Source: Bolinopsis microptera (Eukaryota > Ctenophora > Tentaculata > Lobata > Bolinopsidae). From it: a DNA stretch of 64,000 nucleotides. Below the pieces are notes generated by a model, which was not told where the DNA came from, made no database searches, and was given only the letters and a program-made list of their open reading frames with translations. Shown piece by piece: positions 8,201 through 56,578 of this stretch. Both the position numbers and the translations under genes were made by a program. The DNA lies in the NCBI RefSeq assembly GCF_026151205.1, contig NC_087074.1, forward strand, positions 20,329,240 through 20,393,239, read 5' to 3'. Numbering within the stretch: position 1 is the first letter of the stretch; each line of letters begins with the position of its first letter.

Positions 8201-8510
8201 CGATTCCCCAACACAATCTGCACCACCATTAGCCGGAGCAGGGTTGGTGCAAGTCCTTGTTCTGGTTTGGGTACCTTCTCCACAATTAAGTGAACATTCA
8301 GACCATTCTCCGAAATCAGTGTAACCACCATCGGCTAGATTTGAAAGATATCATTATTATCTTGTTATACTTGAATCAAAAACTCATGAACGTCGAGTAA
8401 ACAAATTTTTGGAATCCTGGCTTGTCTCAACGATTCCTGCAAATTTGAACCAGATCTCAAACTGAGACTTGAACAGGTATTCATGATCTTGAAACTAAGA
8501 TAGACTCACC
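5286..8510 (-). repeat. 807-bp tandem array of SRCR + TSP1 exon pairs
   Basis: Four near-identical 807-bp units, introns included. SRCR exon starts lie at 5587, 6394, 7201 and 8008, and TSP1 exons at 5743-5913, 6550-6720, 7357-7527 and 8164-8334. Units differ by only scattered substitutions (for example GATCC/GGTATC at 6361 versus 7168). The promoter-proximal SRCR exon (8510-8815) shares the coding sequence but has different upstream intron sequence, so it marks the array boundary. Phase 1-1 exons let units be added without a frameshift. Confidence 0.95.
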
Positions 8511-20400: not shown

Positions 20401-22805
20401 TTAACTATCCACTGTCCGTTGTTCAACAGTTTTAAGTCGAGCATTTTCATTTCAGTACTCAAAATTATTTCGACCTTTACAAAACGGAAACAATTTATCT
20501 TAGAACTGTCTTTTCGGTGATTCTTTCAAGAAAATTTCTTATTTTTTCTGAATAGACTCATTGATGACAATGTTCCTAATAAAGGTAAAATTTCAGTACT
20601 AAAATTAATTAGAAATACGAAAATAATCTATCCCGCCTAGCATTAACCACTTATCATTGTTCTCAATGGGATTGAAAAGGCCAAACTTAGGTTCAGATAT
20701 TTGCAGGCCTCGAGGAAAATCATAAGAATAATATCAGATACCGTGAGCTCGCAATATTAAACTTTCACCACATTAACACATGATTACACAGAACTAGCTG
20801 CTAAAGCAATACAGCATGAGTTCAGAAGAAATAGTCCGTGTAAAACGTGAGTTAACAGGAAAATAAATTGGCTGCTCCCGACAAACGATCAAACAGACTC
20901 GGTCAAACAGAACCGGTCAAACAGAACCGGTCATGCTTGAGTCCGGCATTATTAATTGCTGCATGCTCCTCTAACTCTCTAAAAATACATTAAGTCAAAT
21001 TCTTAATTGCCATTCTATTACAATTCACATGAACTAGTTTGTGTTCCATTGTGATCCAGCTCCATGCACTCGATGTACTTGATTTACAGGTCGGCGGATT
21101 GGAGGAGTTGGACTTCACATGAGTCAATGTTTTTTAAGTGTGCACGTTAAGGTTGGATGCAGTGTTTTAATTACATTCTTAGTTAACGTTTGGACGGTAA
21201 TAATATCTTCACTCTTCAGTTCTACCCAACACGGATATTATCTCAGCTTTATTACAGAAGTAATAAGTACTGCAGGGAAGCTGCAGCCGAGTAAACTTCA
21301 TACATTTGCAGATTAACTGGCTAATAGTTGTATAACACGGTACAGAGCAACACCACTCAAGACCAGATGTCCGGGTTATACTACTCCGATCCAGTGACAA
21401 AAGGATTTTGCGATTATTTTGGCCAAAAATCGCGATACCGCGATTTTTACAGACTACAAATTAAACTATACATAAAATTTGTCGCAAATAATGGGAAAAA
21501 TCGCGATTCCATACATGCCGCGATTTCCTTTTGACAAAACAAAAGTTTTGTCCCTGGTCCGGTCAGGTAACATTTCCGGTTAACATTGCGGTAGAAGTGA
21601 GGAACTACACCTTGTAGGTAGTGGTACTGAACTGAGTGACACGTGACTGGTCTGTGGTTGTTATGGTAACGGTCAACACATAAAACTCACTGACGGAGTA
21701 ACGGTAAGATACATGCATGTTTCTTGAGGAAACGTCAAAATAAACATTACTTCTAACCCGTCTAACACATAGTTGAACCTTCAGTTGATGTTATTTAGAT
21801 GACATTGTGCAATAACTTACACTTTTCGCTAATGATTGCCTTTTCCTGGTTGCCAAAAAATAGTTTAAGATGCAAACATTTCTTGATTAATTTCGGTGTT
21901 ACAATTACAGTGCCCCGGAATTTGCTAGTTTTGTTGAAAGTTTAGAATTGGCCGGCCCTAAATTAGATTAGTTGTACACGCGGAAGAGCAGATAGGATAG
22001 CACTGGTCACGTGGTGTGCCCAGTAGTAAGCCACATTAGGTTTACTCCTGCAGTTCTGCACTGTTAAATTATCTCTGTTACTACAGCGTGTGAGAATGTG
22101 GCCCCTGCAGCAGAGAAAGATGTTTCAACTCGTCGCAATCCTGCTCGGGTGTTTGGTTTATTCTGGTTCCTCTGCTGCCGTCGCTAGTGCAACAGGTTTG
22201 TTTTAGTTTCTCTGCTAGTGTCGCTAGTGCAACAGGTTTGTTCTAGTTTCTTTGCTAGTGTCGCTAGTGCAACAGGTTTGTTCTAGTTTCTTTGCTAGTG
22301 TCGCTAGTGCAACAGCTTTGTTCTAGTTTCTCTGCTAGTGTCGCTAGTGAATCAGGTTTGTTCTAGTTTCTCTGTTAGTGTCGCTAGTGAATCAGGTTTG
22401 TTCTAATGGCTGATTTGGTTTCCGGTGGTCGAAGGTATCTAATAAAACATGTAATAATTTCAACAAACCTAAAAGACGTCTTTAAAGCGAAAATATAATC
22501 GAGTTGGCAGAGCCATCAAATTCAATGTAAATAGTAATACACGCAAACTGAACAGAAGTACATTTTAAGTAAGTCCTCTGCTCTGTATTTGGTGTTTTAC
22601 ATACACTTGACGTTAAAACATGCAGTGCATTTCAAAATTAGACTGCTTCTTAACGGGCAACATACAGACTAAACTCTAAAGGAATAAAAACAAAATCAGA
22701 AGAATGAGAACAAAATCAGAAGAATAAAAAATAATATCAGAAAATCTACTCACCAGATTGACCACGGTGCTGCTGAACTCGAAAACTTTCGTTCGCGTTA
22801 GCCAT
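17464..22805 (-). CDS. Small coiled-coil protein, six exons
   Basis: Exons in coding order: 22805-22754 (ATG, MANANESF), 20322-20273, 19319-19209, 18824-18630, 18403-18314 and 17637-17464 (TGA). Junction phases agree (1, then all 0), giving 223 residues. From about residue 35 onwards the protein is charged with heptad-like Leu/Ile spacing (LKKKEEEEGARNSARSS; IKLLNEDLVRTHELDRRAIE; IGRLKQMEESIFELKNEK), indicating a long coiled coil, so a structural or adaptor role is likely. I do not recognise the family. Most donors are strong (GTGAGT), but the one after 18630 (GTTAGC) is weak; read-through there ends at TAA 18567 and would give a shorter isoform. Intron 3 holds a 332-bp GGGA tract. Exon 1 lies inside intron 1 of the plus-strand ShKT/sushi gene and vice versa. 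Confidence 0.65.
18861..19192. repeat. (GGGA)n microsatellite, about 83 copies
   Basis: 332 bp of almost uninterrupted GAGG-GAGG on the plus strand, with one T substitution near 18907. Long GGG runs at 4-bp spacing can form G-quadruplexes or triplex DNA. It lies in an intron of the minus-strand coiled-coil gene, whose RNA carries the C-rich strand. Confidence 0.97.
19320..20272. other. Intron 2 of the coiled-coil gene
   Basis: No gene was seen. It contains a (GA)n run at 19904-19924 and, at 20200-20280, a partial tandem duplication around the exon 2 donor (ATAGTCTCCAA / ATGGTCTCCAAT spacing). Confidence 0.45.
20323..22095. other. Intron 1 of the coiled-coil gene; 5' flank of the ShKT/sushi gene
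   Basis: No convincing ORF. There is a triple GGTCAAACAGAACC-like repeat at 20890-20930 and a cluster of ATCGCGAT-type motifs at 21405-21530. The last few hundred bases should include the promoter of the plus-strand gene starting at 22096; no clear TATA box was found. Confidence 0.4.
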
Positions 22806-25800
22806 GTGCTACTTTATCTCAGAACTACACTCGTCCCTTATATCTATCCCACTAGTATCTAGATAACAGAGAAACTTGGTACTTGTGAGGCAAAGCCGAG
22901 ACGTTAAAAGGTCACGTGAATGTGGTAAAATTGAATTGATATCAAATGCATGTTACGAATTATCAGAGCGGAAACATGACATGACCACCACCGTACCACA
23001 ACCATTGATCAAATGCTTAGTTTCTGCATGAGGATCCTTTCAATAACTTTAAATATGTTCAGAATTAGAGATGATACTAAATAACGCGAATGAATCAATG
23101 AATGATAAATCATACTGGATGTGAAAAATAACATTATAATGATAAGACAGTATCACACAACCCCTCTAGAGACAAAGATAGACGTGGTTAATATCACACA
23201 ACCCCTCTAGAGATAAAGATAGACGTGGTTAATATCACACAACCCCTCTAGAGATAAAGATAGACGTGGTTAATATCACACAACCCTTCTAGAGATAAAG
23301 AGAAACGTGGTTAATATCACACAACCCCTCTAGAGATAAAGATAGACGTGGTTAATATCACACAACCCTTCTAGAGATAAAGAAAAACGTGGTTAATATC
23401 ACACAACCCCTCTAGAGATAAAAAGAAACGTGGTTAATATCCCACAACCCCTCTAGAGATAAAAAGAAACGTGGTTGATATCACACAACCCCTCTAGAGA
23501 TAAAGATAGACGTGGTTAATATCACACAACCCTTCTAGAGATAAAGAGAAACGTGGTTAATATCACACAACCCCTCTAGAGATAAAAAGAAACGTGGTTA
23601 ATATCCCACAACCCCTCTAGAGATAAAAAGAAACGTGGTTAATATCACACAACCCCTCTAGAGATAAAGATAGACGTGGTTAATATCACACAACCCTTCT
23701 AGAGATAAAGAGAAACGTGGTTAATATCACACAACCCCTCTAGAGATAAAAAGAAACGTGGTTAATATCCCACAACCCCTCTAGAGATAAAAAGAAACGT
23801 GGTTGATATCACACAACCTCTCTAGAAATAAAGATAGACGTGGTTAATATCACACAACCCCTCTAGAGATAAAGATAGACGTGGTTAATATCACACACCC
23901 CCTCTAGAGATGAAGATAGACGTGGTTAATATCACACAACCCCTCTAGAGATAAAGATAGACGTGGTTAATATCACACAACCCCTCTAGAGATAAAGATA
24001 GACGTGGTTAATATCACACAACCCATCTAGAGATAAAGATATACGTGGTTAATATCACACAACCCCTCTAGAGATAAAGATAGACGTGGTTAATATCACA
24101 CAACCCCTCTAGAGATAAAGATAGACGTGGTTAATATCACACAACCCCTCTAGAGATAAAGATAGACGTGGTTAATATCACACAACCCCTCTAGAAATAA
24201 AGATAGACGTGGTTAATATCACACGACCCCTCTAGAGATAAAGATAGACGTGGTTAATATCACACAACCCCTCTAGAGATAAAGATATACGTGGTTATAT
24301 CACACAAGTCACAACCCCTCTAGAGATAAAGATAGACGTGGTTAATATCACACGACCCCTCTAGAGATAAAGATAGACGTGGTTAATATCACACAACCCC
24401 TCTAGAGATAAAGATAGACATGGTTAATATCACACAACCCCTCTAGAGATAAAGATATACGTGGTTAATATCACACAACCCCTCTAGAGATAAAGATAGA
24501 CGTGGCTGAAGCGTGTACTGATAAGGAGGACGGCTGTGCAGGGTGGGCTAGTGATGACTACTGTCAAACTCAGCGTGATCTCATGTCCTACTACTGTCCG
24601 TCTACCTGTGGCTTCTGCAACACTGTACAAGAGGTTACTACTAAATACTAATACTTAATTGTTGGTTGCTTAGTAATTAGGTTACTAGGTAACCGTATTT
24701 TTACCAGGGATCATTATTATTATATACCATCATTATCTTGACAAGCTTTAATCTTCTCACATTGTTTGATGTACAAGTCATAGGCCCCTCCGAGAAAAGA
24801 TGAAGAATTGACAATATGTAATCTCAGGCGACAGATATAATGACAGAGATAGTGGAAAGTATGGTGGAAGCTACTGATCCCTCAACTAACAGGGGGTCAT
24901 ACGTGGACACCAGGTATTATAATATAGACTACTGACTACTGACTACTGACTACTGACTACTGACTACTGACTACTGACTACTGACTACTGACTACTGACT
25001 ACTGACTACTGACTACTGACTACTGACTACTGACTACTGACTACTGACTACTGACTACTGACTACTGACTACTGACTACATATTATTATGCTCTGTAATC
25101 ACTCACCAAACTCTACTACATATTATGCTCTGTAATCACTCACCAAACTCTACTACATATTATGCTCTGTAATCACTCACCAAACTCTACTACATATTAT
25201 GCTCTGTAATCACTCACCAAACTCTACTACATATTATGCTCTGTAATCACTCACCAAACTCAACACACTAAACACAGCCCACCTGAAACTGGTGTTATCA
25301 TAATATGCAATCAGTTAATACCTAGTATAGCTATTAGCTGCTCCCTGTAAGCCGGGATTTGCTAACAGTCGGAACTATATATATATATACTAGCGGTTAT
25401 TTAGGTTTTATTCTGAGTGGTCAGCAAAATAATCCATGCCTACACAAAAAGAGTGTTGTAGCCTTTACATTATGAGAATAATGTCTCTAAGAGTAAGAAC
25501 ATTGAAATTTGGAGAACGTTAAATTATTGTAGGCTGCTTCAAAAATCAGATCAAAATTATTAAATCGTTCGATGTGCCAAAAACCTTGAAATTGTCAAAT
25601 TTGAAAGCTTAATCTAAATATTTGCAGTGATGAAAAAAACTACGATTACAATTCTGATAACGATAACGGTAGCAACGACTACGAAGCTAACTACGAAGCT
25701 AACTACGAAGCTAACTACGACTCCGACTATGACTCAGGCTACGAGGTGAAGTCAGACACAGTAACTCCAGCAATAACTAACCAATGTGCAGGGGAGATAA

Positions 25801-28800
25801 GGAACGGGGAGTTGAAGGACATGACACCCAGCAGTTACGGTTCTGTGGAGTGCACGGAGGGCTTCACTAGAACTGGACCTTATTACATCTACTGTAACGA
25901 ACAAGGTTAGTGAGGGAGATTTCAGATTTGACAAGTTCCTTGAGGAGTAGGTAGATTTAGGCATAATCTAGTGGCTGGATTTAGGACATATAACCCTTTT
26001 CTCGTATAATAACAGGAGACCACTAACCAGAACAACCCGGGCAGGTATAATAACAGGAGACCACTAACCAGAACAACCCGGGCAGGTATAATAACAGGAG
26101 ACCACTAACCAGAACAACCCGGGCAGGTATAATAACAGGAGACCACTAACCAGAACAACCCGGTCAGGTATAATAACGGGAGACCACTAACCAGAACAAC
26201 CCGGTCAGGTATAATAACAGGAGACCACTAACCAGAACAACCCGGGCAGGTATAATAACAGGAGACCACTAACCAGAACAACCCGGGCAGGTATAATAAC
26301 AGGAGACCACTAACCAGAACAACCCGGGCAGGTATAATAACAGGAGACCACTAACCAGAACAACCCGGGCAGGTATAATAACAGGAGACCACTAACCAGA
26401 ACAACCCGGGCAGGTATAATAACAGGAGACCACTAACCAGAACAACCCGGTCAGGTATAATAACGGGAGACCACTAACCAGAACAACCCGGGCAGGTATA
26501 ATAACGGGAGACCACTAACCAGAACAACCCGGTCAGGTATAATAACAGGAGACCACTAACCAGAACAACCCGGTCAGGTATAATAACGGGAGACCACTAA
26601 CCAGAACAACCCGGTCAGGTATAATAACAGGAGACCACTAACCAGAACAACCCGGGCAGGTATAATAACAGGAGACCACTAACCAGAACAACCCGGGCAG
26701 GTATAATAACAGGAGACCACTAACCAGAACAACCCGGTCAGGTATAATAACATGAGACCACTAACCAGAACAACCCGGGCAGGTATAATAACGGGAGACC
26801 ACTAACCAGAACAACCCGGTCAGGTATAATAACAGGAGACCACTAACCAGAACAACCCGGGCAGGTATAATAACAGGAGACCACTAACCAGAACAACCCG
26901 GGCAGGTATAATAACAGGAGACCACTAACCAGAACAACCCGGTCAGGTATAATAACAGGAGACCACTAACCAGAACAACCCGGTCAGGTATAATAACAGG
27001 AGACCACTAACCAGAACAACCCGGTCAGGTATAATAACAGGAGACCACTAACCAGAACAACCCGGTCAGGTATAATAACAGGAGACCACTAACCAGAACA
27101 ACCCGGGCAGGTATAATAACAGGAGACCACTAACCAGAACAACCCGGGCAGGTATAATAACAGGAGACCACTAACCAGAACAACCCGGCAGGTATAATAA
27201 CAGGAGACCACTAACCAGAACAACCCGGTCAGGTATAATAACAGGAGACCACTAACCAGAACAACCCGGGCAGGTATAATAACAGGAGACCACTAACCAG
27301 AACAACCCGGGCAGGTATAATAACGGGAGACCACTAACCAGAACAACCCGGGCAGGTATAATAACAGGAGACCACTAACCAGAACAACCCGGGCAGGTAT
27401 AATAACAGGAGACCACTAACCAGAACAACCCGGGCAGGTATAATAACAGGAGACCACTAACCAGAACAACCCGGTCAGGTATAATAACGGGAGACCACTA
27501 ACCAGAACAACCCGGGCAGGTATAATAACAGGAGACCACTAACCAGAATAACCCGGGCAGGTATAATAACAGGAGACCACTAACCAGAACAACCCGGTCA
27601 GGTATAATAACAGGAGACCACTAACCAGAACAACCCGGACAGGTATAATAACAGGAGACCACTAACCAGAACAACCCGGTCAGGTATAATAACAGGAGAC
27701 CACTAACCAGAACAACCCGGGCAGGTATAATAACAGGAGACCACTAACCAGAACAACCCGGTCAGGTATAATAACAGGAGACCACTAACCAGAACAACCC
27801 GGTCAGGTATAATAACAGGAGACCACTAACCAGAACAACCCGGGCAGGTATAATAACAGGAGACCACTAACCAGAACAACCCGGTCAGGTATAATAACAG
27901 GAGACCACTAACCAGAACAACCCGGACAGGTATAATAACGGGAGACCACTAACCAGAACAACCCGGTCAGGTATAATAACAGGAGACCACTAACCAGAAC
28001 AACCCGGTCAGGTATAATAACAGGAGACCACTAACCAGAACAACCCGGGCAGGTATAATAACAGGAGACCACTAACCAGAACAACCCGGTCAGGTATAAT
28101 AACGGGAGACTAGACTATTAACCAGAACAACCCGGGCAGGTATAATAACAGGAGACCACTAACCAGAATAACCCGGTCAGGTATAATAACAGGAGACCAC
28201 TAACCAGAACAACCCGGTCAGGTATAATAACAGGAGACCACTAACCAGAACAACCCGGGCAGGTATAATAACAGGAGACCACTAACCAGAACAACCCGGG
28301 CAGGTATAATAACAGGAGACCACTAACCAGAACAACCCGGTCAGGTATAATAACAGGAGACCACTAACCAGAACAACCCGGGCAGGTATAATAACAGGAG
28401 ACCACTAACCAGAACAACCCGGGCAGGTATAATAACAGGAGACCACTAACCAGAATAACCCGGTCAGGTATAATAACAGGAGACCACTAACCAGAACAAC
28501 CCGGGCAGGTATAATAACAGGAGACCACTAACCAGAACAACCCGGTCAGGTATAATAACAGGAGACCACTAACCAGAACAACCCGGTCAGGTATAATAAC
28601 GGGAGACCACTAACCAGAACAACCCGGTCAGGTATAATAACAGGAGACCACTAACCAGAACAACCCGGGCAGGTATAATAACAGGAGACCACTAACCAGA
28701 ACAACCCGGGCAGGTATAATAACAGGAGACCACTAACCAGAATAACCCGGTCAGGTATAATAACAGGAGACCACTAACCAGAACAACCCGGTCAGGTATA

Positions 28801-31800
28801 ATAACAGGAGATCACTAACGAGAACAACCCGGGCAGGTATAATAACAGGAGACCACTAACCAGAACAACCCGGTCAGGTATAATAACAGGAGACCACTAA
28901 CCAGAACAACCCGGTCAGGTATAATAACAGGAGACCACTAACCAGAACAACCCGGGCAGGTATAATAACAGGAGACCACTAACCAGAACAACCCGGGCAG
29001 GTATAATAACAGGAGACCACTAACCAGAACAACCCGGGCAGGTATAATAACAGGAGACCACTAACCAGAACAACCCGGGCAGGTATAATAACGGGAGACC
29101 ACTAACCAGAACAACCCGGTCAGGTATAATAACGGGAGACCTGCCTACTTGTGAGAGGAAATGTAGCGATATAAAGATAGAGGGAGGAAACATAGAACCT
29201 CCCGAGAATGAGAAGCAAGGATGGTTATATGTTTCGGTGAGTTACTGACACTGTGAGATATACGTGATGGTTATGTAGCGATGCTAGTACAGCTAGTAGA
29301 TACGTGCTGAGCTGCGGTGATGACGGTGATTCTAATTTTCTGTGCTTTCTATTGCCGTTAAAAGCTGTGGTCACAGTGACCGGGTACTGATAACTAACGT
29401 CAATATTTTGTGTAGGAATTAGGTCTCATTATTCACATAATTAGACGGTTATGTGACCAAATCTCTAACACAACGTATTGATCAGCTCGGTAACGCTTTG
29501 ATCTTCTCCAGCTCAAATTAAATCGCTCAATTGTTGATAACCGTTTAACGTTAGCTATCTCCCACAATCCACACTGTGTTTTAACTGGACCGCCGTTCTT
29601 AACCACCAAATATTTCTCATTGATGTGGTGTTCGTATTTTGCTTATTTCAACTGCCATTCATTGTCAAGAGTAGAAGTTGGGTAACTTTTCGGTTAAGTA
29701 ACCTTAATCCACCACGAGTCACGACTGCAGTCAAATGGTTATACTTTCAGGAGTTTCCTAGGACAAAATATATAGTTTAACTTAACCACAACTGCAGATC
29801 ACTAATATATTTGACTAAATTATATAAAACTTGGTTGTGAAGAAGAGAATGTATTTCAGTGTTATAACCAGTGTAACAAAATGATGGAACAGTAAGAAAT
29901 GTAACAACTAGAGTAATTGAGTGATTAGAGTTTGGAAACTGAAGTAATTAAGTGATTAGAGTTTGGAAACTGAAGTAATTAAGTGATTAGAGTGTAACAA
30001 CTAGAGAAATGTTCAGTGATTAGAGTGTAACAACTAGAGAAATGTTAAGTGATTAGAGTGTAACAACTAGAGAAATGTTACGTGATTAGAGTGTAACAAC
30101 TAGAGAAATGTTAAGTGATTAGAGTGTAACAACTAGAGATATGTAAAGTGATTAGAGTGTAACAACTAGAGAAATGTTATGTGATTAGAGTGTAACAACT
30201 AGAGAAATGTTATGTGATTAGAGTGTAACAACTAGAGAAATGTTAAGTGATTAGAGTGTAACAACTAGAGATATGTTAAGTGATTAGAGTGTAACAACTA
30301 GAGAAATGTTATGTGATTAGAGTGTAACAACTAGAGATATGTTAAGTGATTAGAGTGTAACAACTAGAGAAATGTTATGTGATTAGAGTGTAACAACTAG
30401 AGAAATGTTAAGTGATTAGAGTGTAACAACTAGAGATATGTTAAGTGATTAGAGTGTAACAACTAGAGAAATGTTATGTGATTAGAGTGTAACAACTAGA
30501 GAAATGTTAAGTGATTAGAGTGTAACAACTAGAGAAATGTTAAGTGATTAGAGTGTAACAACTAGAGAAATGTTATGTGATTAGAGTGTAACAACTAGAG
30601 AAATGTTAAGTGATTAGAGTGTAACAACTAGAGATATGTAAAGTGATTAGAGTGTAACAACTAGAGAAATGTTATGTGATTAGAGTGTAACAACTAGAGA
30701 AATGTTAAGTGATTAGAGTGTAACACCCCTACTCCGCAGTGTAACGAAGGTAAAAGCCTGGAAGGTAACACCCCTACTCCGCAGTGTAACGAAGGTAAAA
30801 GCCTGGAAGGTAAAGCGTGTAACACCCCTACTCCGCAGTGTAAGGAAGGTAAAAGCCTGAGTGTAACACCCCTACTCCGCAGTGTAACGAAGGTAAAAGC
30901 CTGGAAGGTAAAGCGTGGAACTGGTGTGACAGAGGTGTGGTGGATGTGATTCCCAAATGTGTGGGAGGAGAAACTACCAGCGAGGAGCAGATCATCTCCC
31001 CAGACAACACTGCCTCTGAGGTAGACTACGATACAAACTACAAGGAGGATGAGGAGGAGTACACTGAGAAGAAGGAGGAGGAGGTAGGGGGAGCGTACGG
31101 AGGCTGTCCTCTGGAAGAGGTGGAGAATGGAATGTGGACTGACCCGTACCAGAGCAGTACTTACTGGATACTAGAGTGTAACACTGGGTAAGTACCAGAG
31201 CAGTACTTACTGGATACTAGAGTGTAACACTGGGTAAGTACCAGAGCAGCACTTACTGGATACTAGAGTGTAACACTGGGTAAGTACCAGAGCAGCACTT
31301 ACTGGATACTAGAATGTAACACTGGGTAAGTACCAGAGCAGGACTTACTGGATACTAGAGTGTAACACTGGGTAGGTACCAGAGCAGTACTTACTGGATA
31401 CTAGAGTGTAACACTGGGTAAGTACCAGAGCAGTACTTACTGGATACTAGAGTGTAACACTGGGTAAGTACCAGAGCAGTACTTACTGGATACTAGAGTG
31501 TAACACTGGGTAAGTACCAGAGCAGTACTTACTGGATACTAGAGTGTAACACTGGGTAGGTACCAGAGCAGTACTTACTGGATACTAGAGTGTAACACTG
31601 GGTAAGTACCAGAGCAGTACTTACTGGATACTAGAGTGTAACACTGGGTAGGTACCAGAGCAGCACTTACTGGATACTAGAGTGTAACACTGGGTAAGTA
31701 CCAGAGCAGTACTTACTGGATACTAGAGTGTAACACTGGGTAAGTACCAGAGCAGTACTTACTGGATACTAGAGTGTAACACTGGGTAAGTACCAGAGCA

Positions 31801-34800
31801 GCACTTACTGGATACTAGAGTGTAACACTGGGTAAGTACCAGAGCAGTACTTACTGGATACTAGAGTGTAACACTGGGTAGGTACCAGAGCAGTACTTAC
31901 TGGATACTAGAGTGTAACACTGGGTAAGTACCAGAGCAGTACTTACTGGATACTAGAGTGTAACACTGGGTAAGTACCAGAGCAGTACTTACTGGATACT
32001 AGAGTGTAACACTGGGTAAGTACCAGAGCAGTACTTACTGGATACTAGAGTGTAACACTGGGTAAGTACCAGAGCAGTACTTACTGGATACTAGAGTGTA
32101 ACACTGGGTAAGTACCAGAGCAGTACTTACTGGATACTAGAGTGTAACACTGGGTAAGTATCAGAGCAGTACTTACTGGATACTAGAGTGTAACACTGGG
32201 TAAGTACCAGAGCAGTACTTACTGGATACTAGAGTGTAAAACTGGGTAAGTACCAGAGCAGCACTTACTGGATACTAGAGTGTAACACTGGGTAAGTACC
32301 AGAGCAGCACTTACTGGATACTAGAGTGTAACACTGGGTAAGTACCAGAGCAGTACTTACTGGATACTAGAGTGTAACACTGGGTAAGTACCAGAGCAGT
32401 ACTTACTGGATACTAAAGTGTAACACTGGGTAAGTACCAGAGCAGTACTTACTGGATACTAGAGTGTAACACTGGGTAAGTACCAGAGCAGCACTTACTG
32501 GATACTAGAGTGTAACACTGGGTAGGTACCAGAGCAGTACTTACTGGATACTAGAGTGTAACACTGGGTAAGTACCAGAGCAGTACTTACTGGATACTAG
32601 AGTGTAACACTGGGTAAGTACCAGAGCAGCACTTACTGGATATTAGAGTGTAACACTGGGTAAGTACCAGAGCAGCACTTACTGGATACTAGAGTGTAAC
32701 ACTGGGTAAGTACCAGAGCAGCACTTACTGGATACTAGAGTGTAACACTGGGTAGGTACCAGAGCAGCACTTACTGGATACTAGAGTGTAACACTGGGTA
32801 GGTACCAGAGCAGGACTTACTGGATACTAGAGTGTAACACTGGGTAGGTACCAGAGCAGTACTTACTGGATACTAGAGTGTAACACTGGGTAGGTACCAG
32901 AGCAGTACTTACTGGATACTAGAGTGTAACACTGGGTAAGTATCAGAGCAGCACTTACTGGATACTAGAGTGTAACACTGGGTAAGTACCAGAGCAGCAC
33001 TTACTGGATACTAGAGTGTAACACTGGGTAAGTACCAGAGCAGTACTTACTGGATACTAGAGTGTAACACTGGGTAAGTACCAGAGCAGTACTTACTGGA
33101 TACTAGAGTGTAACACTGGGTAAGTACCAGAGCAGTACTTACTGGATACTAGAGTGTAACACTGGGTAAGTACCAGAGCAGTACTTACTGGATACTAGAG
33201 TGTAACACTGGGTAAGTACCAGAGCAGTACTTACTGGATACTAGAGTGTAACACTGGGTAAGTACCAGAGCAGTACTTACTGGATACTAGAGTGTAACAC
33301 TGGGTAAGTACCAGAGCAGTACTTACTGGATACTAGAGTGTAACACTGGGTAGTACCAGAGCAGTACTTACTGGATACTAGAGTGTAACACTGGGTATGT
33401 ACCAGAGCAGTACTTACTGGATACTAGAGTGTAACACTGGGTAAGTACCAGAGCAGTACTTACTGGATACTAGAGTGTAACACTGGGTAAGTACCAGAGC
33501 AGTACTTACTGGATACTAGAGTGTAACACTGGGTAAGTACCAGAGCAGTACTTACTGGATACTAGAGTGTAACACTGGGTAGTACCAGAGCAGTACTTAC
33601 TGGATACTAGAGTGTAAAACTGGGTAAGTACCAGAGCAGCACTTACTGGATACTAGAGTGTAACACTGGGTAAGGTACCAGAGCAGCACTTACTGGATAC
33701 TAGAGTGTAACACTGGGTAAGTACCAGAGCAGTACTTACTGGATACTAGAGTGTAACACTGGGTAAGTACCAGAGCAGTACTTACTGGATACTAAAGTGT
33801 AACACTGGGTAAGTACCAGAGCAGTACTTACTGGATACTAGAGTGTAACACTGGGTAAGTACCAGAGCAGCACTTACTGGATACTAGAGTGTAACACTGG
33901 GTAAGTACCAGAGCAGCACTTACTGGATATTAGAGTGTAACACTGGGTAAGTACCAGAGCAGCACTTACTGGATACTAGAGTGTAACACTGGGTAGGTAC
34001 CAGAGCAGTACTTACTGGATACTAGAGTGTAACACTGGGTAAGTACCAGAGCAGTACTTACTGGATACTAGAGTGTAACACTGGGTAAGTACCAGAGCAG
34101 CACTTACTGGATACTAGAGTGTAACACTGGGTAAGTACCAGAGCAGACTTACTGGATACTAGAGTGTAACACTGGGTAAGTACCAGAGCAGTACTTACTG
34201 GATACTAGAGTGTAACACTGGGTAGTACCAGAGCAGTACTTACTGGATACTAGAGTGTAACACTGGGTAAGTACCAGAGCAGTACTTACTGGATACTAGA
34301 GTGTAACACTGGGTAAGTACCAGAGCAGCACTTACTGGATACTAGAGTGTAACACTGGGTATGTACCAGAGCAGTACTTACTGGATACTAGAGTGTAACA
34401 CTGGGTAAGTACCAGAGCAGTACTTACTGGATACTAGAGTGTAACACTGGGTAAGTACCAGAGCAGTACTTACTGGATACTAGAGTGTAACACTGGGTAA
34501 GTACCAGAGCAGTACTTACTGGATACTAGAGTGTAACACTGGGTAAGTACCAGAGCAGTACTTACTGGATACTAGAGTGTAACACTGGGTAAGTACCAGA
34601 GCAGTACTTACTGGATACTAGAGTGTAACACTGGGTAAGTACCAGAGCAGTACTTACTGGATACTAGAGTGTAACACTGGGTAGGTACCAGAGCAGTACT
34701 TACTGGATACTAGAGTGTAACACTGGGTAGTACCAGAGCAGCAGTACTTACTGGATACTAGAGTGTAACACTGGGTAGTACCAGAGCAGTACTTACTGGA

Positions 34801-37800
34801 TACTAGAGTGTAACACTGGTAAGTACCAGAGCAGTACTTACTGGATACTAGAGTGTAACACTGGGTAAGTACCAGAGCAGTACTTACTGGATACTAGAGT
34901 GTAACACTGGGTAAGTACCAGAGCAGTACTTACTGGATACTAGAGTGTAACACTGGGTAAGTACCAGAGCAGTACTTACTGGATACTAGAGTGTAACACT
35001 GGGTAAGTACCAGAGCAGTACTTACTGGATACTAGAGTGTAACACTGGGTAAGTACCAGAGCAGTACTTACTGGATACTAGAGTGTAACACTGGGTAAGT
35101 ACCAGAGCAGTACTTACTGGATACTAGAGTGTAACACTGGGTAAGTACCAGAGCAGTACTTACTGGATACTAGAGTGTAACACTGGGTAAGTACCAGAGC
35201 AGCACTTACTGGATACTAGAGTGTAACACTGGGTAAGTACCAGAGCAGTACTTACTGGATACTAGAGTGTAACACTGGGTAAGTACCAGAGCAGTACTTA
35301 CTGGATACTAGAGTGTAACACTGGGTAAGTACCAGAGCAGTACTTACTGGATACTAGAGTGTAACACTGGGTAAGTACCAGAGCAGTACTTACTGGATAC
35401 TAGAGTGTAACACTGGGTAAGTACCAGAGCAGTACTTACTGGATACTAGAGTGTAACACTGGGTAAGTACCAGAGCAGTACTTACTGGATACTAGAGTGT
35501 AACACTGGGTAAGTACCAGAGCAGTACTTACTGGATACTAGAGTGTAACACTGGGTAAGTACCAGAGCAGTACTTACTGGATACTAGAGTGTAACACTGG
35601 GTAAGTACCAGAGCAGTACTTACTGGATACTAGAGTGTAACACTGGGTAAGTACCAGAGCAGTACTTACTGGATACTAGAGTGTAACACTGGGTAAGTAC
35701 CAGAGCAGTACTTACTGGATACTAGAGTGTAACACTGGGTAGGTACCAGAGCAGCACTTACTGGATACTAGAGTGTAACACTGGGTAGGTACCAGAGCAG
35801 CACTTACTGGATACTATAGTGTAACACTGGGTAGGTACCAGAGCAGTACTTACTGGATACTAGAGTGTAACACTGGGTAGGTACCAGAGCAGCACTTACT
35901 GGATACTAAAGTGTAACACTGGGTAGGTACCAGAGCAGCACTTACTGGATACTATAGTGTAACACTGGGTAAGTACCAGAGCAGTACTTACTGGATACTA
36001 GAGTGTAACACTGGGTAAGTACCAGAGCAGTACTTACTGGATACAAGAGTGTAACACTGGGTAAGTACCAGAGCAGTACGTACTGGATACTAGACTGTAA
36101 CACTGGGTAAGTACCAGAGCAGTACTTACTGGATACTAGAGTGTAACACTGGGTAAGTACCAGAGCAGTACTTACTGGATACAAGAGTGTAACACTGGGT
36201 AAGTACCAGAGCAGTACTTACTGGATACTAGAGTGTAACACTGGGTAAGTACCAGAGCAGCACTTACTGGATACTATAGTGTAACACTGGGTAAGTACCA
36301 GAGCAGTACTTACTGGATACTAGAGTGTAACACTGGGTAAGTACCAGAGCAGCACTTACTGGATACTAGACTGTAACACTGGGTAAGTACCAGAGCAGCA
36401 CTTACTGGATACTAGAGTGTAACACTGGGTAAGTACCAGAGCAGTACTTACTGGATACTAGAGTGTAACACTGGTAAGTACCAGAGCAGCACTTACTGGA
36501 TACTAGAGTGTAACACTGGGTAAGTACCAGAGCAGCACTTACTGGATACTAGAGTGTAACACTGGGTAGGTACCAGAGCAGTACTTACTGGATACTAGAG
36601 TGTAACACTGGGTAAGTACCAGAGCAGTACTTACTGGATACTAGAGTGTAACACTGGGTAAGTACCAGAGCAGTACTTACTGGATACTAGAGTGTTACAC
36701 TGGGTAAGTACCAGAGCAGTACTTACTGGATACTAGAGTGTAACACTGGGTAAGTACCAGAGCAGTACTTACTGGATACTAGAGTGTAACACTGGGTAAG
36801 TACCAGAGCAGTACTTACTGGATACTAGAGTGTAACACTGGGTAAGTACCAGAGCAGTACTTACTGGATACTAGAGTGTAACACTGGGTAAGTACCAGAG
36901 CAGTACTTACTGGATACTAGAGTGTAACACTGGGTAAGTACCAGAGCAGTACTTACTGGATACTAGAGTGTAACACTGGGTAAGTACCAGAGCAGTACTT
37001 ACTGGATACTAGAGTGTAACACTGGGTAAGTACCAGAGCAGTATTTACTGGATACTAGAGTGTAACACTGGGTAGGTACCAGAGCAGCACTTACTGGATA
37101 CTAGAGTGTAACACTGGGTAAGTACCAGAGCAGTACTTACTGGATACTAGAGTGTAACACTGGGTAAGTACCAGAGCAGTACTTACTGGATACAAGAGTG
37201 TAACACTGGGTAAGTACCAGAGCAGTACGTACTGGATACTAGACTGTAACACTGGGTAAGTACCAGAGCAGCACTTACTGGATACTAGAGTGTAACACTG
37301 GGTAAGTACCAGAGCAGTACTTACTGGATACAAGAGTGTAACACTGGGTAAGTACCAGAGCAGTACTTACTGGATACTAGAGTGTAACACTGGGTAAGTA
37401 CCAGAGCAGCACTTACTGGATACTATAGTGTAACACTGGGTAAGTACCAGAGCAGTACTTACTGGATACTAGAGTGTAACACTGGGTAAGTACCAGAGCA
37501 GCACTTACTGGATACTAGACTGTAACACTGGGTAAGTACCAGAGCAGCACTTACTGGATACTAGAGTGTAACACTGGGTAAGTACCAGAGCAGCACTTAC
37601 TGGATACTAGAGTGTAACACTGGGTAAGTACCAGAGCAGTACTTACTGGATACTAGAGTGTAACACTGGGTAAGTACCAGAGCAGTACTTACTGGATACT
37701 AGAGTGTTACACTGGGTAAGTACCAGAGCAGTACTTACTGGATACTAGAGTGTAACACTGGGTAAGTACCAGAGCAGTACTTACTGGATACTAGAGTGTA

Positions 37801-40800
37801 ACACTGGGTAAGTACCAGAGCAGTACTTACTGGATACTAGAGTGTAACACTGGGTAAGTACCAGAGCAGTACTTACTGGATACTAGAGTGTAACACTGGG
37901 TAAGTACCAGAGCAGTACTTACTGGATACTAGAGTGTAACACTGGGTAAGTACCAGAGCAGTACTTACTGGATACTAGAGTGTAACACTGGGTAAGTACC
38001 AGAGCAGTACTTACTGGATACTAGAGTGTAACACTGGGTAAGTACCAGAGCAGTATTTACTGGATACTAGAGTGTAACACTGGGTAGGTACCAGAGCAGC
38101 ACTTACTGGATACTAGAGTGTAACACTGGGTAGGTACCAGAGCAGTACTTACTGGATACTAGAGTGTAACACTGGGTAAGTACCAGAGCAGCACTTACTG
38201 GATACTAGAGTGTAACACTGGGTAAGTACCAGAGCAGTACTTACTGGATACTAGAGTGTAACACTGGGTAAGTACCAGAGCAGTACTTACTGGATACTAG
38301 AGTGTAACACTGGGTAAGTACCAGAGCAGTACTTACTGGATACTAGAGTGTAACACTGGGTAGGTACCAGAGCAGCACTTACTGGATACTATAGTGTAAC
38401 ACTGGGTAAGTACCAGAGCAGTACTTACTGGATACTAGAGTGTAACACTGGGTAAGTACCAGAGCAGGACTTACTGGATACTAAAGTGTAACACTGGGTA
38501 GGTACCAGAGCAGCACTTACTGGATACTATAGTGTAACACTGGGTAAGTACCAGAGCAGTACTTACTGGATACTAGAGTGTAACACTGGGTAAGTACCAG
38601 AGCAGTACTTACTGGATACAAGAGTGTAACACTGGGTAAGTACCAGAGCAGTACGTACTGGATACTAGACTGTAACACTGGGTAAGTACCAGAGCAGCAC
38701 TTACTGGATACTAGAGTGTAACACTGGGTAAGTACCAGAGCAGTACTTACTGGATACTAGAGTGTAACACTGGGTAGGTACCAGAGCAGTACTTACTGGA
38801 TACTAGAGTGTAACACTGGGTAAGTACCAGAGCAGTACTTACTGGATACTAGAGTGTAACACTGGGTAAGTACCAGAGCAGTACTTACTGGATACTAGAG
38901 TGTAACACTGGGTAAGTACCAGAGCAGTACTTACTGGATACTAGAGTGTAACACTGGGTAAGTACCAGAGCAGTACTTACTGGATACTAGAGTGTAACAC
39001 TGGGTAAGTACCAGAGCAGTACTTACTGGATACTAGAGTGTAACACTGGGTAAGTACCAGAGCAGTACTTACTGGATACTAGAGTGTAACACTGGGTAAG
39101 TACCAGAGCAGTACTTACTGGATACTAGAGTGTAACACTGGGTAAGTACCAGAGCAGTACTTACTGGATACTAGAGTGTAAAACTGGGTAAGTACCAGAG
39201 CAGTACTTACTGGATACTAGAGTGTAACACTGGGTAAGTATCAGAGCAGTACTTACTGGATACTAGAGTGTAACACTGGGTAAGTACCAGAGCAGTACTT
39301 ACTGGATACTAGAGTGTAACACTGGGTAAGTACCAGAGCAGTATTTACTGGATACTAGAGTGTAACACTGGGTAGGTACCAGAGCAGCACTTACTGGATA
39401 CTAGAGTGTAACACTGGGTAGGTACCAGAGCAGTACTTACTGGATACTAGAGTGTAACACTGGGTAGGTACCAGAGCAGTACTTACTGGATACTAGAGTG
39501 TAACACTGGGTAAGTACCAGAGCAGCACTTACTGGATACTAGAGTGTAACACTGGGTAAGTACCAGAGCAGCACTTACTGGATACTAGAGTGTAACACTG
39601 GGTAAGTACCAGAGCAGTACTTACTGGATACTAGAGTGTAACACTGGGTAAGTACCAGAGCAGTACTTACTGGATACTAGAGTGTAACACTGGGTAAGTA
39701 CCAGAGCAGTACTTACTGGATACTAGAGTGTAACACTGGGTAAGTACCAGAGCAGTACTTACTGGATACTAGAGTGTAACACTGGGTAAGTACCAGAGCA
39801 GTACTTACTGGATACTAGAGTGTAACACTGGGTAAGTACCAGAGCAGTACTTACTGGATACTAGAGTGTAACACTGGGTAAGTACCAGAGCAGTACTTAC
39901 TGGATACTAGAGTGTAACACTGGGTAAGTACCAGAGCAGTACTTACTGGATACTAGAGTGTAACACTGGGTAAGTACCAGAGCAGCACTTACTGGATACT
40001 AGAATGTAACACTGGGTAGGAGATATTAGTAATATGCTTTTAGTTATCATGTTATAAGGAATCAAGCAAGGATATAAAATAGGGGCTAGGGTAAAATAAA
40101 TTAAGCTAAGAAGATCCCAGACCTGCAGAAAATGACCACTAAAATATCACATGTCATATTCCTCTAAGGTATGTGAAGAACGGAGGGGACAGCTACGTTT
40201 ACTGTGATGACAAGAAAGAAGTGACGGGAGTAGCTCCTCAGTGTGAGGAAGACAAGTGTGCAAACGCAAAGGTGGAGAACGGAGTGGTGACTACTTCAGG
40301 GACCGGGGCTTGGATATGGGTCAAGGTTAGAACCTAACAGAAACAAATACCTTAACTGTCTAGCTGTAACTGATAATTATTGATTCGATAACTGTTAGAT
40401 GTATTATATTAAAAATAGTACTCTACCTACCAAACAGTGGTAAAGAATATTAAAAATATGTTATAAATGCGAAGATAAATTAAATAATCACCAAGCGTTC
40501 CAACCGTTAGGAGATGAAATACTGTGGTCAGTGCCTAGGCAACCCACCTCTAGTAACTAGGCAACCCACCTCTGGTAACTTTCCCAGAGTGTTAAACTAC
40601 TCCTCATAATAAGCTAACCTATTCGGGGGGTTTATAAGCTGCAATGAGTACCAGTAACTTAGTGAGCTAGCTAACTGAATTAGGAACAGTAAGATGGCGG
40701 GTATGATGACGTCACATAATAAGGAGCCTGAAAGGACAAGGGGCGGGGTGATATTACCATGACACGGAGTTATCCTCATAATTATTATATCCACCACGTG

Positions 40801-41204
40801 CTGATAGTTTTACTAGATCCTATAATATGTAAGCTGGTTATAACCGTAATGGTTGTTATTTTTGCAAATTGCCGAGCTGGCTTGATCAGAACCAGCCCAG
40901 TTGTTACAAAGCTATTTAAAAGTCAGGAAGGTCACAATGTTGGGACACGTGCCTGCTTCTAGAGTATTAGGGCAATATGGTCTTACTATTTGAAACGTAT
41001 TTAAGTAAACTAAATCAGCGAAGTTACTAAAAACGTTCATAGTTCTTACGATTATTCACAACTCATGATTCAGTTTTAAAACTAACAGTTTGATGTGTAC
41101 AGGTGGAGTGTAACCCAGGATACAGTTTGTCTGGTAGTGACGGGACCTACTGCAGTAGCACTGACGGTGCATTATCTGCTCCTCTCGGTACCTGCAACAT
41201 GTGA
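22096..41204 (+). CDS. Secreted ShKT and sushi (CCP) domain protein
   Basis: Eight exons: 22096-22195, 24488-24633, 24828-24913, 25628-25905, 29124-29236, 30883-31187, 40169-40325 and 41103-41204 (TGA). Phases (1, 0, 2, 1, 0, 2, 0) agree at every junction, giving 428 residues. Exon 1 is a signal peptide (MFQLVAILLGCLVYSG core). Exon 2 is a ShKT six-cysteine module (DYCQTQRDLMSYYCPSTCGF), a fold used in cysteine-rich secreted proteins and channel-blocking peptides. Exon 4 has an acidic Asn/Tyr tract with three in-frame NYEA repeats, then a sushi module. Exons 5-8 hold further sushi-type cysteines (VENGMWTD..., VENGVVTT..., VECNPGYSLSG). A role in adhesion, recognition or secretion is plausible; the toxin label is not justified by the fold alone. 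If the donor at 24634 is skipped, TAA soon follows, giving a short ShKT-only form. Most of the 19 kb is minisatellite intron. Confidence 0.8.
22171..22402 (+). repeat. 40-bp minisatellite seeded on the exon 1 donor
   Basis: Copies of the end of exon 1 plus donor (GTCGCTAGTGCAACAGGTTT) recur about six times. The first copy is exon sequence to 22195. At least three copies keep CAACAG/GTTTGT, and later ones mutate to GAATCAG or CAGCTTTG. Confidence 0.9.
23145..24505 (+). repeat. 41-bp minisatellite (about 33 copies) seeded on the exon 2 acceptor
   Basis: The unit contains ACAACCCCTCTAGAGATAAA then GATAGACGTGG. The final copy runs directly into exon 2 (CTCTAG/AGATAAAGATAGACGTGGCTG), so each unit repeats the pyrimidine-rich acceptor and the first codons. 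Variants (AAAAAGAAACG, TATACG) alternate in blocks. Confidence 0.95.
24927..25079 (+). repeat. (GACTACT)n, about 22 copies
   Basis: A perfect heptamer run just inside the intron after exon 3. Confidence 0.97.
25079..25260 (+). repeat. 37-bp tandem repeat, five copies
   Basis: The unit begins ACATATTATGCTCTGTAATC and follows the heptamer run directly. Confidence 0.93.
26004..29140 (+). repeat. 41-bp minisatellite (about 76 copies) seeded on the exon 5 acceptor
   Basis: The unit starts GTATAATAACAGGAGACCAC and ends AACCCGGGCAG or AACCCGGTCAG. The last copy leads straight into exon 5 (CCCGGTCAG/GTATAATAACGGGAGACCTG), so acceptor and exon start are repeated throughout. G/T at the GGGCAG/GGTCAG position and A/G in AACAGG/AACGGG vary between copies. 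Confidence 0.96.
29141..30724. other. Exon 5 and intron 5, including a 33-bp minisatellite
   Basis: After exon 5 (to 29236) about 690 bp show no structure. From about 29919 short GTGATTAGAG-containing repeats begin, becoming a regular 33-bp array (GTGATTAGAGTGTAACAACT, about 22 copies) to 30724. Confidence 0.85.
30725..30908 (+). repeat. Four tandem copies of the exon 6 acceptor region
   Basis: ACCCCTACTCCGCAGTGTAA followed by CGAAGGTAAAAGCCTGG occurs four times with variable spacing. The last copy is the true exon 6 start at 30883. Confidence 0.92.
31142..40019 (+). repeat. 8.9-kb, 46-bp minisatellite (about 190 copies) seeded on the exon 6 donor
   Basis: The unit starts GTAAGTACCAGAGCAGTACT and continues TACTGGATACTAGAGTGTAA then CACTGG. 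The first copy is the end of exon 6 plus its donor (CACTGG/GTAAGT at 31187/31188). Every unit therefore repeats exon sequence and a near-consensus donor; some are altered to GTAGGT, GTATGT or GGTAGTACC. In each unit GTAAGTAC and GTACTTAC can pair around a 7-nt loop. Confidence 0.97.
40326..41102. other. Intron 7 of the ShKT/sushi gene
   Basis: No gene was seen. A short duplication of AACCCACCTCT(A/G)GTAACT occurs near 40543-40580. Confidence 0.4.
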
Positions 41205-41279
41205 TATTATGTAGTGACGGGACCTACTGCAGTAGCACTGACGGTGCATTATCTGCTCCTCTCGGTACCTGCAACATGT
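41134..41279 (+). repeat. 77-bp tandem duplication of the coding 3' end
   Basis: GTAGTGACGGGACCTACTGC starts at 41134 in the last exon and again at 41211 in the 3' UTR; the copy extends through CCTGCAACATGT. Only the first copy is translated, because TGA at 41202-41204 precedes the second. Confidence 0.9.
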
Positions 41280-42703
41280 AATAATGTAACATATACTCTG
41301 GGACATGTAATAATGTAACATTCCTGGACATATAATAACAGGTTTCACATCGAACCTGTACAATTTAATAAAGATGATTGACTTTTGACAAAAGAAAGAG
41401 TTTCGTTAAAATCACCTAGTTTGTGTTGGTGCATTATTAAGAAAAGAAGTTTTCACCGGTTGAACAACCTTTTAGTTTTATGCGTTTTGGTAAGATACGG
41501 AAATATTGTTATTTTGGGATAGATTTTATATGTTTTTTAGAATTATCACATTAATGAATGGAAGTACATCATTAAAAGTAAGCCTGCTTTCTACCCGTTC
41601 TCTTATTATTAAATTTGGTTGACCTGCTGTCGTCACAACAGAACTCATTTGCAAAATAGAGAATCGATCAAATCCTTAAGATGAGTGTACTTCACAAATC
41701 AAAACAAATTTAATCAAAGATTCGATTAATCACAGAAAATTTGAAAACATTTGATCGAGTTTCCACTGTCTAATTGCAATGTCCAGTTGTCTGTAGTTTG
41801 ACACTCCCTGAATGTCATAGCCCTATTAAGGGGGCATACACCAAAACAGTGGTTTGTGCCGTCCAGACCAAATGACCTCATAGGCAGTTCAGTGACCTTC
41901 TAGCGCACCGTTTCCACACAAAAAAAATCATTTTGAGAATTCCCATTTTTGTAATCGACCATTTCCTGGTTAAGAGTGCAATTTTCGGAAAAAATAATTT
42001 TTTGGTTGAGACGCTATAAGTTAATCATTTCTTGCGGTATCGGGTTGCTCGCCGTTTATTCACATCTATTTCAATGTGTGTGTAAAATCTTGATATCGTA
42101 TCTAAAAAGGCTGGTGTGTTATGAATTTTTAAAGTCAAAAAGCTAAAATTGTCTGTAGTTTGTAACTCCCTGAATATCATAGCCCATATTAAAGAACCTA
42201 AAGAATTGAACAAAACCTGGAAATCAAGTAATAATTAGGTGAATAAATAATTAGGTAATAATTAAGTAAATAAATTGTATGCAGTTCAATCTAACCAACG
42301 GGTATTGTTAGGCGAAAACTTCTTCGATCCATGTATTATGTATAATGGAATGGAACAAATAATAATACGATTTCAGGTGCTGTAATAAATATTGAAACAT
42401 TATAAATCAAGTACAATCAGGTCACGGTGTTCAGATATTCTCAAAATTTAACACCATTAAAAAGGCAAAACTTCAACCTTTTCATTTAACTAGGCATATC
42501 ATTATCCATCTAGCATATTAAATCGAGGTCACACTATGCAGTTCAAATCAGTTCAAATCAGTCCTTCAAATTTCAATAGCTTTAGATCACGGAACACAGA
42601 CATATTGTGTAGAATTAAAGAACACCAAACAGTCACCCTCCGGTCCACTCTCAGGCACCGGTTCAGCTCCAGGCACTGGTAGTGGTAGTTTAGATCTGTG
42701 GTC
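41280..42703. other. Intergenic region between the convergent ShKT/sushi gene and GFM1
   Basis: AT-rich sequence without a convincing ORF. A 40-bp motif containing ACTCCCTGAAT(G/A)TCATAGCCC occurs twice in direct orientation (near 41800 and 42163), perhaps a remnant of a dispersed repeat. AATAAA-like signals for the ShKT/sushi gene are at 41367. Confidence 0.45.
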
Positions 42704-51910: not shown

Positions 51911-52532
51911 GTTTCTGATAAGGTAACTGATTAGTAGAGGAATTGTAAAATAATTCCTGATATTATATAATGACTTTGATATATTTCTCTCACAAGTAGT
52001 TTATTTTAGTAGTTCAAAAAGATAATACGAGTTGTCATTTATGCGTTGTATATTGTATATAATATTACCAGTCAAGCCATGGTTGAAATAATGAAATTTA
52101 CCTCCGGAGCCATGTTTCTGATAAGGTATGTTATTAGTATTAGAGGAATTATACAGTTATTCTTTATATAATGAGCTTCTGAATGTCTGATTAGATGTTG
52201 GATTATGAAAACGTCGAGAATATTCAAGTTAATAGTTATCTTGAAAAGAAATTATTCACATACAATACAATGTTCAAACTTTTATTCCAAACATTCGTAT
52301 CAAGGTTAAAAAGTGCTACATGCGTGAAAGGTAAGGCTCAGTCATGATTTAACGGGCAAATCCAAACCGAGAGAAGTTAAATCGAATTAAGAAATCTAGA
52401 TTATAGTAATTGTAACATTGAGACTTGCTTTCTTCAACTATATACAAATCTTCATATCTAACTTACCATCAGCTGTCTAAATTTAAAGAATTCATTAGAA
52501 ATCACATCTATTTGGAGATTATTCCAACTCTA
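51911..52532. other. 5' flank of BTB copy 1 with a relic BTB start; 3' flank of copy 2
   Basis: At 52075-52150 the sequence around the copy 1 start is duplicated (CCGGAGCCATGTTTCTGATA versus the region at 51902), on the minus strand giving MAPE followed by GTAAAT. This looks like a leftover first-codon fragment from BTB tandem duplication. Bases 52490-52532 match the BTB copy 1 3' flank at 50165-50206, showing that this is the displaced 3' flank of copy 2, separated from it by the large insertion. Confidence 0.55.
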
Positions 52533-56001: not shown

Positions 56002-56312
56002 AGGGAGTAGTCGTGTTGACTGAGTTAGCTGTAAAAAACAGCCAATAAGTAAAACTCAGATAGGGAGAAGTGTAGTCAAAGAACTGGTTGTAGGAAACAA
56101 CACAGTCCAGATAGGAGTAGGAAGGGAGGACTCAGAACTAGTTGTAGAAAACAACGTAGTTTAGAGTAAAGTAGGCAAAGAAGACAGGCACGTAGCGTAA
56201 ACTACAAAATAAAAATGTGTATTTGAAAGATAGAGCTTAAAGTTGAAATGTCAAAAGATTGTACTCAGTGTGTGAAATAGTAAACTGAAACCGGGTGAGC
56301 TATATTTCACGA

Positions 56313-56326
56313 GGGTATTTATACCC
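56313..56326 (-). promoter_or_regulatory. TATA box in a GGGTATAAATACCC palindrome (left arm)
   Basis: TATAAATA on the minus strand, about 310 bp upstream of the ATG at 56001. The box is inside a 14-bp near-palindrome. The spacing leaves room for a transcription start and a short 5' intron ending at the acceptor-like site before the ORF. Confidence 0.6.
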
Positions 56327-56578
56327 GCTTCATCGTGACAGGGATAACGAGCCAATTGTTTACAAACAAGCAGCAAGCATGTGAATCCTTCTTGATAAGG
56401 TTCAGATCACGTTTGATCGCATGCAGGGTTCTTGTCTCCGATAGATCAGATCATTGTCTTCTAAGAAGATCATATCCTCGTTCTTGCCCCCTCTGGCTCC
56501 AGTGGATCTCATCATTACTCGATAAGCATCGGATCAAATGATTGCCTCAAAAACCGTATCATCTGGTTCCACAATCTC

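Follow-up and report, generated by a model that had tools for sequence, protein, structure and literature searches.

Introduction

Tandem repeats that span an exon-intron boundary are known as mirages in the Adh3 and globin genes of amphioxus (PMC3087553), and mirages have been extended to troponin C and PGBD5 (PMC3902484). Tandem exonic copies with splice signals also characterize a second set of systems, which includes the Rogers model, the fission-yeast multiples (24 base pairs, bp) and potato RdRp (PMC4974935). In the open-access literature searched, no ctenophore report of junction-spanning arrays and no genome-wide test for them was found.

Here we describe a window of 64,000 nucleotides from the ctenophore Bolinopsis microptera (contig NC_087074.1, positions 20,329,240 to 20,393,239 of the forward strand; positions below are those of the window), which ends 0.89 megabases short of the contig end. 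At 22096-41204 on its plus strand lies a gene for a predicted ShK/Sushi protein, in which 5 of the 14 exon-intron junctions fall within minisatellite arrays with units near 40-46 bp and up to 193 copies. These junction arrays look like the mirage phenomenon known from amphioxus. We consider it probable that they are mirage-type minisatellites which stem from general minisatellite birth and are tolerated at junctions since their extra copies become intron.

The ShK/Sushi gene and its junction arrays

The gene model, built from the sequence, has 8 exons with in-frame joins, and every phase is consistent. The predicted product, of 423 amino acids with the first model of exon 5 and 428 after its correction (see below), contains an ShK domain (Pfam, E 6.6e-10) and Sushi-like segments with one weak Pfam match, under the cut-off. 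With a signal peptide judged by eye, it is predicted to be a secreted ShK/Sushi protein. One relative, P0001, was found among 4,243 candidates. This protein of 464 amino acids carries precomputed ShK and Sushi domains and is 50% identical over 98%, and the match along 98% supports the predicted exon joins. The exons are as follows.

22096..22195, plus strand: exon 1, N-terminal, signal-peptide-like by eye; donor AACAG/GTTTGT; in-frame model
24488-24633, plus strand: exon 2, ShK domain; in-frame model
24828..24913, plus strand: exon 3; a 7-bp array begins 13 bp past its donor
25628..25905, plus strand: exon 4; a 12-bp coding repeat lies within it at 25676-25729
29124-29236, plus strand: exon 5; acceptor placed by P0001
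30883-31187, plus strand: exon 6; in-frame model
40169..40325, plus strand: exon 7; in-frame model
41103..41204, plus strand: exon 8, including the stop codon; in-frame model

Arrays were located by Tandem Repeats Finder (TRF), and at least 6 bp on each side was required for a junction to count as inside an array. The following repeats touch the exons.

22155..22405, plus strand: 40-bp × 6.3 array over the exon 1 donor (TRF); one genome match
23151..24505, plus strand: 41-bp × 33 array over the exon 2 acceptor (TRF)
26004..29141, plus strand: 41-bp × 76 array over the exon 5 acceptor (TRF); matches its own locus only
30718..30921, plus strand: compound array (TRF units 44/45/54/98) over the exon 6 acceptor; one genome match
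31146..40018, plus strand: 46-bp × 193 array over the exon 6 donor (TRF); matches its own locus only
41134..41283, plus strand: 77-bp × 1.9 duplication of the last-exon end with the stop codon (TRF)

The initial annotation had placed arrays holding the splice site and adjacent coding bases at these five junctions and had described the last exon as tandemly duplicated; TRF recovers all of them. The coding bases within the arrays number 41 at the exon 1 donor, 18 at the exon 2 acceptor, 18 at the exon 5 acceptor, 39 at the exon 6 acceptor and 42 at the exon 6 donor. When the 11 arrays of the gene were placed at random in the copy-collapsed gene, 0.89-1.07 junction matches were expected and the probability of at least five was 0.00025-0.001, a value that is flattering, as the gene was picked because it is striking.

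The comparison with P0001 bears on several of these junctions. P0001 reads CNEAGLITGELPTC at the place where the first exon 5 model gave CNEQDLPTC, and an acceptor 15 bases upstream (29124, formerly 29139) yields CNEQGIITGDLPTC in the ShK/Sushi gene; the exon 5 acceptor was therefore placed at 29124, deeper within the 41-bp array. In P0001 the junction segments of exon 5 and of both ends of exon 6 are each present once. Where exons 1 and 2 join, the sequence is poorly conserved with respect to P0001, so that an intronic repeat may conceivably have been recruited into the exon there.

The genome searched comprised 264,652,675 bases in 232 contigs. One first-look candidate was scored per array region, and match counts are lower bounds. 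In this search no second locus was found for the array regions of the exon 1 donor, exon 5 acceptor, exon 6 acceptor and exon 6 donor (the exon 2 region was not included), and no second haplotype of the ShK/Sushi locus appeared among the scored matches. An origin from a dispersed satellite, or from a transposon taken up by exons, was rejected for these same four regions, which match their own locus only.

The units at 26004-29141, 22155-22405 and 43851-44281 (the last in GFM1, a second gene of the window) have AG/GT exactly at the junction. As an idea only, an inner acceptor in such units would recreate a donor, and arrays could then correct themselves by recursive splicing.

Junction arrays elsewhere in the genome

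The genome background was taken from 20 stretches of ten kilobases (kb), 18 at preset positions and 2 flanking the window, with the window subtracted by hand and one stretch containing masked bases. TRF arrays with a period of at least 10 cover 29,166 of the 200,000 bases (14.6%). In the accessible text on Hormiphora californensis the corresponding TRF figure is 13% (PMC8527503). With minisatellites so abundant, part of the overlap with junctions is expected.

These stretches held too few multi-exon genes for junction counts, so conserved exons were found by protein queries, which gave 109 genome matches for a kinase exon, 100 for Rab1, 50 for the kinesin motor, 27 for a PP1-type phosphatase and 27 for E2. 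Ninety short stretches were taken (20+20+20+10+20), with preference for short open frames and exons close together; E2 exons make up four stretches only. Before the count, L024 and L094 were dropped for want of a clear site and L030, L047, L056 and L077 as near-identical paralogues, which left 84 loci with 87 acceptors and 105 donors, or 192 junctions. Each splice site was chosen manually on the strength of open frame, homology and site score; array output was visible during picking for L024-L043, L084-L093 and L094-L113 and hidden for L044-L083, although the duplication in L048 was noticed all the same. Two near-identical Rab1-like loci, C51:27560-35028 and C7:16851191-16858390, differ in intron lengths and are perhaps two haplotypes.

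Arrays in the sample were called with a gapless lag detector, which at scores 13-18 found none in Markov-shuffled sequence totalling 27,972 bp. A rule of at least 1.5 copies was set after 6 of 173 junctions had been seen to be spanned without it, and under it two partial repeats at donors, both with a wide lag (200 in L073, 73 in L106), were discarded. The 13-bp array of L087, with a donor-like GTGAGGT in most units, begins 3 bp ahead of the donor; it fails the 6-bp rule and was included as near-donor, not as spanning. After collapsing, the sampled introns hold about 0.3-0.6 arrays per kb (20-34 arrays in about 58 kb).

Arrays span 6 of the 192 junctions, or 3.1% (binomial 95% interval 1.2-6.7%). 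The spanned donors are those of L040 (39 bp, kinase), L074 (47 bp, Rab-type) and two kinesin-type loci, L084 (20 bp) and L099 (48 bp × 8); the spanned acceptors are those of L048 (49 bp × 4, kinase) and L073 (40 bp, Rab-type). The coding part of the units holds conserved motifs in L048 (RDLKLDN of the kinase) and in exon 6 of the ShK/Sushi gene (YWILEC), and therefore the exon edge is older than the array there. No clear array was seen inside the coding exons of the sample. Four were classed as exonic at score 15: the two in L039 start past the stop of the frame, the one in L071 precedes the first exon, and the one in L061 runs across the open frame's end.

Are junctions favoured?

Under general minisatellite birth, local tandem duplication by slippage or unequal exchange would be frequent genome-wide, and a duplicated segment that covered an exon edge by chance would copy the splice site with the adjoining coding bases. 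The spliceosome would stay with the exon-proximal site, the first copy for a donor and the last for an acceptor, because exon definition would favour the exon-proximal copy. All extra copies would then be intron, at low cost, leaving the array free to reach hundreds of copies, and duplications within coding exons would mostly be purged, so that junction arrays would be the visible remnant of exon-touching events. Here we infer the duplication mechanism, the splice-site choice, the neutrality and the purging. The single exon 5 and exon 6 segments of P0001 fit, as indirect support, with extra copies being kept out of the mature mRNA.

Several observations weigh against this account. P0001 comes from another source and may simply be without arrays. 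The ShK/Sushi gene is an outlier even allowing for its own array density. In the sample, the 6 spanned junctions exceed uniform seeding (1.35-2.42 expected, depending on detector threshold and unit set) 2.5- to 4.4-fold (P 0.0027-0.037); an earlier version, made for the first 123 junctions, predicted 0.80 with one-unit seeds or 2.29 with two-unit seeds, against 5 counted. Array starts near donors lie about 3-fold above expectation, so that a model without any bias may oversimplify.

The junction bias proposed in the initial annotation finds partial support. Spanning arrays exceed uniform seeding and an excess of array starts at donors is suggested, but overlap is only twice that of decoys and not significantly above it, lies below intron coverage, and is accompanied by no effect at acceptors. 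Decoy splice-like GT/AG sites in collapsed introns fall in arrays in 10 of 682 cases (1.5%, at score 15 and the lowest cuts; higher cuts gave 5/371 and 3/198), and the difference from real junctions has a Fisher P of 0.12, or 0.086 with 9/686 at score 18. Raw intron points lie in arrays in 2,263 of 45,557 cases (5.0%, first 55 loci), above the junction rate; junctions are therefore not over-covered unless copies are collapsed. A junction-seeking mechanism is not established.

The competing account with most in its favour holds that junctions, chiefly 5' splice sites, are true tandem-duplication hotspots with units of about 40-50 bp in this lineage, for instance because DNA damage linked to transcription, or RNA-DNA hybrids, arise where introns begin; we regard it as unlikely. 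Non-spanning array starts within 20 bp of the 105 donors number 9 at score 13 (2.7-3.0 expected, P 0.0002-0.001) and 8 at score 15 (2.4-2.7 expected, P 0.0005-0.0008), and donors hold four of the six spanning arrays. In GFM1, one donor is followed at 5 bp by a 22-bp array and another is spanned by a 24-bp array. The donor-only second set (19 donors) contains the spanned L099, and arrays start 15 bp past the donor in L101 and 24 bp in L104. The excess nevertheless shrinks to 4 against 1.8-2.0 with strict calls (score 18, P 0.07-0.09), and a number of the arrays near donors are weak, of simple sequence or rich in AT. The 20-bp limit was set with data already in view, and real donors (4/105 spanned) do not differ significantly from decoy donors (6/245; P 0.35). 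Near acceptors there is no excess, with 3, 2 and 1 arrays at scores 13, 15 and 18 against 2.3-2.4, 1.9-2.0 and 1.5-1.6. Arrays beginning 6-16 bp past donors occur in L032, L060, L062, L072, L084, L091 and L101, some of them simple or AT-rich.

Unit size also bears on the hotspot account. Units of 38-50 bp, a class chosen after looking, occur in 11 of 14 junction arrays (8 from the window, with the ambiguous exon 6 acceptor unit counted as 45, and 6 from the sample). In the other intron arrays, which number 24-34, the length-weighted share of this class is 0.27-0.33 (P 0.0001-0.0006); for the sample alone the count is 5 of 6 (P 0.006-0.018). P becomes 0.02 and 0.09 when the control also includes the spanning arrays. 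Among the 147 arrays of the 20 ten-kb stretches the class has a weighted share of 0.08, and mean unit length does not differ between junction and other intron arrays (P 0.2-0.4). A mild 5' splice-site hotspot of array birth is possible, and the data suggest that a modest donor-side bias is the part of the claim worth testing. If junctions were true hotspots with units of about 40-50 bp, a process linked to transcription or to splicing would be indicated, and a donor-side excess that held genome-wide would link minisatellite birth to splice sites.

Other explanations

Far less probable is the Rogers model, in which introns are born when exon segments containing AGGT are tandemly duplicated, with the arrays as leftovers. 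It was proposed for mirages by the amphioxus authors (PMC3087553, accessible text), and AG/GT stands at the junction in units of the exon 1 donor, the exon 5 acceptor, GFM1, L073 and L074. Against it, none of the 7 introns of the ShK/Sushi gene has donor and acceptor in one array, for which reason it was rejected for this gene: the exon 5 acceptor array begins about 100 bp past the exon 4 donor, and the exon 6 donor array ends about 150 bp before exon 7.

Slightly less credible still is the retention of arrays for the sake of redundant splice sites, useful for buffering or regulating splicing. GT/AG is intact in 4/5 complete units at the exon 1 donor, 33/33 at the exon 2 acceptor, 76/76 at the exon 5 acceptor and 193/193 at the exon 6 donor. 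Other unit positions are, however, about equally conserved, as expected of homogenised arrays: conservation among copies, splice versus other positions, is 0.967/0.965 for exon 1, 0.980/0.958 for exon 2, 0.946/0.992 for exon 5 and 0.969/0.989 for the exon 6 donor. Because splice positions are not consistently better conserved than the rest of the unit, array homogenisation suffices to explain the kept GT/AG, and selection for redundant splice sites, which the initial annotation had offered, was rejected. Moreover, units of 40, 41, 41 and 46 bp would cause a frameshift if an inner copy were used.

An assembly artefact is the weakest candidate: the switch of frame within GFM1 exon 6 is a hint of errors still present, but units differ among copies (13 distinct sequences among 76 complete units, 26 among 193 and 16 among 33) and short-form junction arrays recur at other loci.

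Other genes and repeats in the window

Annotation junction by junction covered the ShK/Sushi gene, GFM1 and two junctions of a gene at the left edge of the window. GFM1, on the minus strand, has 15 exons and 28 junctions by hand count, one of which, the exon 12 donor, is spanned, in agreement with the initial annotation; a 23-bp array ends 15 bp ahead of an acceptor. Exon 6 (46085-46213, minus strand) switches frame within a conserved stretch and continues with KDLPTS in the other frame, which is an assembly slip, a polymorphism or a damaged allele. The two junctions that the initial annotation had singled out in the left-edge gene, whose exon numbers and reading frame are putative, are both duplicated. 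At the donor, the block CTGTAACAGGTA lies at 1505 and 1544, and 24 nucleotides from the GT onwards are found at 1514 and again at 1558, an imperfect duplication unreported by TRF; at the acceptor, 53 nucleotides recur exactly at 2597 and 2665.

43851..44281, minus strand: GFM1 24-bp × 18 array over the exon 12 donor (TRF)
45950..46015, minus strand: GFM1 22-bp × 3 array, start 5 bp past the exon 6 donor
1505..1581, plus strand: left-edge gene, imperfectly duplicated donor; splice-site block at lag 39, downstream block at lag 44
2597..2717, plus strand: left-edge gene, acceptor duplicated at lag 68 together with putative coding bases

In-frame coding repeats in the window occur in exon 4 of the ShK/Sushi gene and at 54567-55175. 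An inverted repeat (54415-56719 and 59059-61678) has the same reading frames on both arms, each with an in-frame 18-bp coding minisatellite of PKSSAQ type. At 5286-8888 (minus strand) five related exons, SRCR-like by eye, follow at a spacing of about 807 bp, a tandem exon duplication. A BTB-domain reading frame (Pfam) occupies 50246-52000, with related frames at the right edge from 63333 and five more in the 10 kb next to that edge (L005). Frames at 9400-12624 and 4195-4971 (minus strand) resemble, by eye, the reverse transcriptase and endonuclease of a non-LTR retrotransposon, and 18861-19191 is a long GAGG tetranucleotide array with 99% matches.

Comparison with known systems

The mirage, named only for lancelets in the accessible text of the open-access literature found, is extended by these arrays to a comb jelly, in which the arrays are far larger and their frequency can be put roughly at 6 of 192 junctions. 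Junction arrays are a ready source of change in splice sites and intron length. Where 76 acceptors or 193 donors are nearly identical, the array also provides a natural test of spliceosomal choice between equal sites.

The AGGT intron-birth systems share with the present arrays tandem exonic copies with splice signals (PMC4974935, accessible text) and differ in that the introns here were already present and acquired copies at one end. The likeness to the amphioxus mirages is closer. As described in the accessible text of PMC3087553, their unit likewise combines splice site, intron and coding bases, and donors and acceptors are affected alike; here too the unit spans a real exon-intron boundary, at 5/14 junctions in the ShK/Sushi gene and 6/192 elsewhere. 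The amphioxus mirages are described as leaving normal splicing undisturbed (PMC3087553 and PMC3902484, accessible parts). The host is a ctenophore instead of a lancelet, and copy number reaches 193, compared with 6 and 3 repeat units in two haplotypes of amphioxus BflGb6 in the text available. Finally, five junctions are affected in one gene, and the frequency of such arrays has been estimated from a homology-picked sample.

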